Below, piece after piece: positions 50,250-51,390 of a DNA stretch of 64,000 bases (position 1 is its first letter; each line of letters opens with the position of its first letter). Origin of the DNA: Hymenobacter psoromatis (GTDB lineage Bacteria; Bacteroidota; Bacteroidia; Cytophagales; Hymenobacteraceae); contig NZ_JAIFAG010000001.1 of the NCBI RefSeq assembly GCF_020012125.1, positions 434,001 through 498,000 of the forward strand, in the 5' to 3' direction. The position numbers and the translations under genes are program-made. The notes under the pieces are model-generated. The model was not told where the DNA came from. It did no database searches and was given only the letters and a program-made list of their open reading frames with translations.

Positions 50250-50260
50250 GGCGCAGGGAG

Positions 50261-50340
50261 AATTGAGAATTAAAAATGATAAATTAAAAATGAAGGAGTC
50301 ACTAACCTCATTTTTAATTTATCATTTTTAATTCTCAATT
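50261..50340. repeat. 33-bp perfect AT-rich inverted repeat
   Basis: Arms 50261-50293 (AATTGAGAATTAAAAATGAT...) and 50308-50340 are exact complements over 33 bp with a 14-base loop. It lies between convergent genes and could terminate both. A related word occurs in the signal-peptide region of the gene at 17862-19994. Confidence 0.92.
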
Positions 50341-50344
50341 TTCC

Positions 50345-50671
50345 TCACTGCCGCACCAGTTCCACGCGGCGGTTTTGGGCGCGGCCGGCTTCGGTATCAT
50401 TGTCGGCCAGCGGCCGGGTTTGGCCGAAGCCGCTGGCGCTCAGGCGGCTGGGGGCGGTGCCCTGGGTCGTGAGGGCGGCCACCACGGCGCGGGCACGGTC
50501 CTCGCTCAGCTGCTGGTTGTGGGCGGGCGTGCTCGTGTTGTCGGTATGGCCCTGCACGGCCAGGCGCAGGCCGGGGCTTTGCTGAAGCAGCGTCAGCACC
50601 TCGGCCAGCACGGGTTGGGCATCGGGCCGCAGGGTGGCTTTATCCGGATCGAAATTCAGATAAAGGGCCAC
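50345..50671 (-). CDS. OmpA C-terminal peptidoglycan-binding domain (3' part of split gene)
   Basis: This frame encodes 108 residues of an OmpA/Pal-type peptidoglycan-binding domain: YLNFDPDKATLRPDAQPVLA, VQGHTDNTSTPAHNQQLSED, RARAVVAAL and GFGQTRPLADNDTEAGRAQN. It has no signal peptide of its own, and the only early start is a GTG. The frame stays open to about 50698, where a -1 shift in the A9 tract would join it to the upstream lipoprotein, giving the expected LKKKLATEGHVALYLNFD sequence. It is therefore almost certainly the C-terminal half of that protein. Confidence 0.75.
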   Translation of the reverse strand: MALYLNFDPDKATLRPDAQPVLAEVLTLLQQSPGLRLAVQGHTDNTSTPAHNQQLSEDRARAVVAALTTQGTAPSRLSASGFGQTRPLADNDTEAGRAQNRRVELVRQ

Positions 50672-50685
50672 GTGGCCCTCCGTCG

Positions 50686-51390
50686 CTAGTTTTTTTTTAG
50701 CTCGGCGGCGGGCGTCACCGTTAGCTTCTGAGGCATAGCGGCCCGCTCCACCACGTTGAGCGTATAGCTATAGTGGTCGGGTACTAGCTGCACCCATACT
50801 TCCTTGTCTTTTTGCCGGATGAGGTAGGTGTCCGCCGACTTGCCGGCATCCAGGCCGTGATACTTACTGTAGTCGTCGCCGACCTTATCCCGCGCTTCAC
50901 CGGGAATTTCGCCCGACCATACCTTGACTCCGCCCAAGGTTTTCACCAGGTTTTCGTAGTTGCGCTCCATCATGAGCTCCGAGGTTTCCTTCTGCTGATT
51001 AATCGACACATATTGGCGCCGTAGCACGTGTCCCTCCACGGGGAGCATCTGCTTGCCATCATACACGTAGAGACGGTCAAACTCATAGTCCGTGCTGTCG
51101 GAGGGCACGTTCAGGTGGTAGCCGGGCAGCTTGGCGAGGTAGGGAAAGCTGCCCATATTGGCCGTCGAAACCGGCACCGAACTCAGGTCAAACGTTGCGT
51201 CGGTGGCCGGAGTGGCGGCCGGCGTGGTGGCGGCTACCCCGGCGGCGGGCACGGGGGTAGGGGTGCCGCTACCGGCGGTGGGCAGGGTGGCAGCCGTGGT
51301 TTGCTCGGCGGCTTTGTCCTTATTGCCGCAGGCGCTGAGGCCGCCGGCTAGTAGCAGCGCGGCCAGAAGGGGTAGGCGAGATGTCATCAT
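50686..51390 (-). CDS. OmpA-family lipoprotein, N-terminal part (ends at an A9 tract)
   Basis: This is a 234-residue lipoprotein. The lipobox ends at C21 (LAGGLSAC), followed by an Ala/Thr/Pro-rich linker and a domain (YLAKLPGYHLNVPSDSTDYE ... DTYLIRQKDKEVWVQLVPDH) that ends VTPAAELKKN at a stop just after nine A. In related OmpA-family proteins this region continues directly into the OmpA domain found in the -1 frame. The full-length product would be about 350 residues, anchored in the outer membrane and binding peptidoglycan. Confidence 0.82.
   Translation of the reverse strand: MMTSRLPLLAALLLAGGLSACGNKDKAAEQTTAATLPTAGSGTPTPVPAAGVAATTPAATPATDATFDLSSVPVSTANMGSFPYLAKLPGYHLNVPSDSTDYEFDRLYVYDGKQMLPVEGHVLRRQYVSINQQKETSELMMERNYENLVKTLGGVKVWSGEIPGEARDKVGDDYSKYHGLDAGKSADTYLIRQKDKEVWVQLVPDHYSYTLNVVERAAMPQKLTVTPAAELKKN
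50690..50698 (-). other. A9 homopolymer at the junction of the split OmpA-family gene
   Basis: Nine consecutive A residues on the coding (minus) strand follow CT and precede CTAG. In the zero frame the stop comes right after. In the -1 frame (equivalent to ten A) translation continues into the OmpA domain. It is consistent with slippage or with a sequencing error. Confidence 0.8.

Follow-up and report, generated by a model that had tools for sequence, protein, structure and literature searches.

A lipoprotein gene of Hymenobacter psoromatis is probably recoded at a conserved run of nine adenines (A9), in the main by slippage of RNA polymerase, such that two lipoproteins would arise from one gene. 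The gene occupies positions 50345–51390 on the minus strand of the window, the whole stretch of 64,000 nucleotides that was analysed. Its frame stops directly behind A9 and continues in the −1 frame into a wall-binding domain.

Architecture of the split lipoprotein gene

The locus comprises the following features:

50686–51390, minus strand: lipoprotein ORF in the zero frame, 234 residues (short product), ending in E-L-K-K-N-stop (ORF reading, orthologues)
51328–51390, minus strand: signal peptide and lipobox L-S-A-C (direct sequence reading), with Cys21 as the putatively lipidated residue
50719–51201, minus strand: N-terminal folded domain with a predicted DcrB/PsbP/PA1624-like fold and no Pfam family (AlphaFold2, VIA-align)
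50690–50698, minus strand: A9 slippery tract, its first A in codon position 3 (CT A AAA AAA AA C)
50686–50688, minus strand: zero-frame TAG stop, one base past A9; its bases fall within CTA GCG (Leu-Ala) of the −1 frame
50345–50689, minus strand: −1 extension of 114 residues, a complete OmpA peptidoglycan-binding domain (Pfam PF00691, motifs)

The zero frame ends in GAG CTA AAA AAA AAC TAG, with the C at 50689 and the stop at 50688–50686, which confirms the position of the tract and the frame end reported in the first-pass annotation. The −1 frame reads CTA (50689–50687) GCG ACG GAG and onward to a TGA at 50345–50347. The OmpA domain that had been recognized in this frame is indeed complete, matching PF00691 with 86.5 bits (cut-off 27.2) over model positions 2–98 of 98. 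It carries the GHTD and LSxxRA motifs; we take the Asp of GxTD and the Arg of LSxxRA to be the peptidoglycan-contact (diaminopimelate-binding) residues of the OmpA domain. The genome holds 20 other OmpA-domain matches, 19 of them above the family cut-off, and in none of the 21 matches, counting the window gene, does a stop fall within the matched stretch. Moreover, A9C is rare, with 11 occurrences in the whole 5.15-Mb genome, and among these 11 sites, as read, the two-frame layout is evident only in the lipoprotein gene and in dnaX. The arrangement of A9, split frame and OmpA domain is far beyond chance.

A cysteine is located at or adjoining the Cys21 position in the aligned orthologues. The AlphaFold2 model of the N-terminal domain (mean pLDDT 91, pTM 0.84) is aligned by VIA-align most closely with PA1624 (6td9; Z 11.4, rmsd 3.1, 125 residues), and also with DcrB (6e8a; Z 8.8). 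Foldseek with this model returned nothing at E<=0.001, and searches of Pfam, NCBIfam and PDB sequences with the domain gave no consistent or significant family. The DcrB/PsbP/Mog1-like fold is a prediction from the model. PA1624 is a periplasmic protein whose function is likewise unassigned. The predicted products fit the gene anatomy and agree with the earlier proposal of a short wall-free and a long wall-anchored protein; we infer an outer membrane lipoprotein in two forms, one free and one gripping peptidoglycan.

The order prmA, lipoprotein gene, small gene, tpiA is kept in most relatives examined, and the prmA/tpiA neighbourhood provides no functional hint for the lipoprotein. Directly past the gene, a long A+T-rich inverted repeat (50258–50342, arms of ~29 nt, GAGAATTAAAAATGATAAATTAAAAATGA) sits between convergent genes and may be a terminator or a small repeat element. 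A palindrome just downstream (GGGCCACGTGGCCC) was considered as a stem for −1 frameshifting and rejected, as it is not kept in orthologues.

Conservation of A9 among orthologues

Orthologues were searched in 120 genomes of the genus Hymenobacter and in genomes of the family, and every locus was oriented. Class A has 39 members, with the window's own counted and a sister genus contributing two; the N-parts of the class are mostly ~50–60% identical to the window gene. Exactly nine A's from codon position 3, followed by (C/T)TAG and by OmpA in the −1 frame, are found in 33 of the 39, the base after A9 being C in 32 and T in one. None of the 39 is at A10, the in-frame state, and the split state of the DNA is therefore kept. 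The recurrence of the same split and the same A9 supports the slippage switch suggested in the first-pass annotation; that the polymerase rather than the ribosome is the site of the slip, we infer from the arguments given below.

The remaining members depart from A9 in different ways. Three carry A8 (G074, G092, and G035) and need a different slip from the A9 forms; they may be real or assembly errors. One gene (G018) is clearly decayed, and in two metagenome genomes (G094 and G093) lipoprotein and OmpA are fused in frame, which indicates that some lineages can do without the short form. By maximum likelihood, the A8, fused, and decayed members fall on different branches scattered among A9 forms; A9 is the presumed ancestral state of class A. 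Almost two thirds of the searched Hymenobacter genomes are without any relative of the lipoprotein gene, which is therefore not essential to the genus. The closest relative (G078, 89% identical) has an additional TAG in the N-domain, ~34 codons ahead of the short-frame stop.

Selection at the junction and on both halves

In 33 of 33 A9 orthologues, A is the third base of all five codons for the Leu-Lys-Lys-Lys-Leu stretch of the shifted product. By comparison, only 7.5% of the Leu codons and 45% of the Lys codons in the rest of these genes have a third-position A, figures in which the 33 related sequences are treated as independent. As the A9 forms are spread over the tree, inheritance alone is an unlikely cause of the invariant third positions. 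The codon before the tract alternates between CTA, TTA, and ATA (Leu or Ile) with a constant last A, while behind the tract stands either CTA or TTA, always followed by a codon that starts with G, whereby the zero-frame TAG is preserved.

Across 11 pairs, dN/dS of the OmpA half is 0.06–0.26, and all 39 class A members retain the GxTD and LSxxRA motifs. Judged from these alignments, both halves of the gene are under purifying selection. A frame transition at one place in many orthologues, conservation of the slippery sequence beyond codon usage, and a selected extension are the marks of a recoding gene, and at the level of sequence all three are found here. In most pairs tested, the OmpA part has diverged less at synonymous sites than the N-domain (e.g. 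0.37 versus 0.71), whereas one pair shows the reverse and another about equal values; gene conversion and RNA constraint are possible reasons.

Fused relatives and the register of the shift

Fused relatives define the register of the productive event. Class B consists of 14 fused paralogues with a single open frame, whose N-part is 36–43% identical to that of the window gene; four genes from a further genus of the family likewise have one uninterrupted frame. Class B shares domain order and junction length with the window gene and differs from it in having one frame, a codon before the A's that ends in G or C, and no conserved A9. A paralogue junction such as ELKKALDANGHVALYINFD aligns gap-free with the shifted product ELKKKLDTEGHVALYLNFD, and the fused paralogues (ELKKALD..GHVALYINFD) have the length of the shifted product (ELKKKLD..GHVALYLNFD), whereas loss of two A's would result in a product one residue short. 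Since the paralogues match the register of the shifted product, the productive event is the gain of one A or a −1 shift. The N-domain is also found by itself in other parts of the order, in a protein of 213–227 residues, and no OmpA motif was found in any frame at these loci. As both architectures exist as ordinary genes, a functional short product is plausible.

Proposed mechanism and alternatives

On a transcript with nine A's, the ribosome would stop at TAG and release the 234-residue lipoprotein, composed of lipobox, flexible linker, and DcrB/PsbP-like domain, without the wall-binding part. If the polymerase slips in A9 and adds one A (10 A's), translation would pass through ...E-L-K-K-K-L-A-T-E-G... 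into the OmpA domain, and the shifted frame would give a 348-residue lipoprotein with the diaminopimelate-binding residues. The slip would occur mainly at the polymerase, both products would presumably reach the outer membrane, and the ratio of short to long form would set the amount of protein anchored to the wall.

A run of nine A's with conserved length in homologues is regarded as most likely for transcriptional slippage, and nine is the threshold for a slippage homopolymer (PMC1088944). The homopolymer expected of slippage genes, about nine or more A or T of conserved length, is present as A9 in 33 of the 39 orthologues. A nine-A cassette of the same phasing led to 40% frameshifting in E. 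coli (PMC3711429), a figure from a protein-ratio assay that does not separate polymerase from ribosome. From the sequences, we would rank transcription clearly above translation as the site of the slip.

Programmed −1 ribosomal frameshifting, in which the transcript always has A9 and the ribosome slips by −1 at one of two heptamers, A_AAA_AAA or A_AAA_AAC, ahead of TAG, is the strongest alternative, and we consider it unlikely. Both heptamers are in frame, and a ribosomal shift would therefore yield the identical product. All 33 A9 orthologues call for a −1 shift, and constant direction is a ribosomal sign in PMC3711429. Further, folding of the downstream 70 nt is somewhat more stable than that of shuffled sequences (mean z −1.09, with 12 of 33 below −1.5) and stronger than in class B paralogues (−0.19), consistent with a possible weak stimulatory structure downstream of A9. 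However, this region contains no covarying pairs and no consensus RNA structure, and each heptamer needs only six or seven A's, whereas all nine are invariant. Moreover, the three A8 orthologues need the other direction, which is associated with transcriptional realignment in PMC3711429, although they may be assembly errors.

Polymerase slippage also accounts for the locus better than a change in the DNA itself. With phase variation, the tract would change length in replication and cells would switch between short and long product. The A8 tracts in three scattered orthologues demonstrate that the length can change, but a phase-variable gene should be ON in some genomes and none of the 39 is at A10, so that the phase-variable length change raised in the first-pass annotation is very improbable. 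In addition, the dnaX tract of one A8 genome (G092) is short too (A8), hinting at homopolymer errors in this assembly. Even less probable are two separate proteins, with the OmpA part made by re-initiation past TAG. The window does have a GTG in the −1 frame soon after the stop, but 18 of the 33 A9 orthologues have no ATG, GTG, or TTG between tract and domain, the OmpA product, made with no signal peptide, could not enter the periplasm, and the invariant A9 would be left unexplained. An assembly error or strain-specific pseudogene, for which the decayed G018 and the extra TAG in the N-domain of G078 could be cited, has a negligible probability and is refuted as a general explanation by 33 genomes of many laboratories that share the identical split, and by the purifying selection on both halves; likewise, the lost base once considered for the window is rejected because two genera, represented by independent assemblies, conserve both the split frame and A9.

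To our knowledge, conserved slippage sites in chromosomal non-mobile genes are few, and we know of little on polymerase versus ribosome slippage in Bacteroidota. The A9 split falls exactly between the periplasmic and the wall-binding domain, and the desired share of a wall-tethered outer membrane lipoprotein therefore becomes testable. Together with dnaX in the same genus, the lipoprotein gene forms a natural pair in which slippage by the polymerase and by the ribosome can be compared for this phylum. The locus is also a warning for annotation, as automatic pipelines tend to call such genes broken or two separate ORFs.

The dnaX cassette and known slippage systems

The pattern A9YTAG occurs at 111 sites over the genus compared to 27 for the reversed control (hand count). 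Among 30 loci read, 19 are dnaX, seven the window lipoprotein, and four other genes. In the window genome, dnaX (contig C1, ~3055328, outside the window) has an in-frame A10 followed by CTAG. One additional A leads to KKKN and in nearly all cases to an immediate stop, corresponding to a gamma-like short form. The tract is A10 in 27 of 29 loci read across the genus, and A10 dnaX genes are also reported in PMC3711429. By its layout, the A10-CTAG of Hymenobacter is the Thermus-type arrangement, and by analogy this suggests that polymerase slippage at A9–A10 is productive in these cells. Tentatively, one A(9/10)-CTAG cassette may serve two unrelated genes, with slippage setting a fixed, perhaps growth- or temperature-dependent ratio of wall-anchored to wall-free lipoprotein and thereby coupling outer membrane tethering to the polymerase.

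Two variations of dnaX were observed. The tract is A11 in G115 and G004 and A8 in G092. With these lengths, the zero frame runs into a stop and long tau would require slippage; these are real swaps or homopolymer assembly errors. In many Hymenobacter (e.g. G003 and G087), the dnaX match breaks near residue 67 with ~90 extra bases, a ~30-residue insertion in the ATPase domain in one lineage group.

In the open-access literature, we found no paper on programmed frameshifting or slippage in Hymenobacter, and the main text of PMC3711429 mentions neither Hymenobacter nor OmpA nor peptidoglycan. The magnesium chelatase fs-gene cluster (GeneTack) is similar in its two adjacent ORFs, −1 direction, poly-A of the same phasing, nine-A cassette with 40% frameshifting in E. 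coli, and fused homologues (PMC3711429), but belongs to another protein family. In Thermus thermophilus dnaX, slippage at A9 makes both products; like the window gene, it has nine coding-strand A's, a stop close by, and a short and a long product (PMC1088944). It is a different protein, however, and its zero frame encodes the long product and slippage the short one, the reverse of the lipoprotein. In Shigella mxiE and in orfA-orfB of IS elements, slippage joins two ORFs into a longer protein (PMC1088944), as proposed here, but these are a regulator with a U run and transposases, whereas the window gene encodes an envelope lipoprotein with a wall-binding domain. Thus, the lipoprotein appears to be a new gene in the known slippage class of Thermus dnaX, mxiE, and IS elements.
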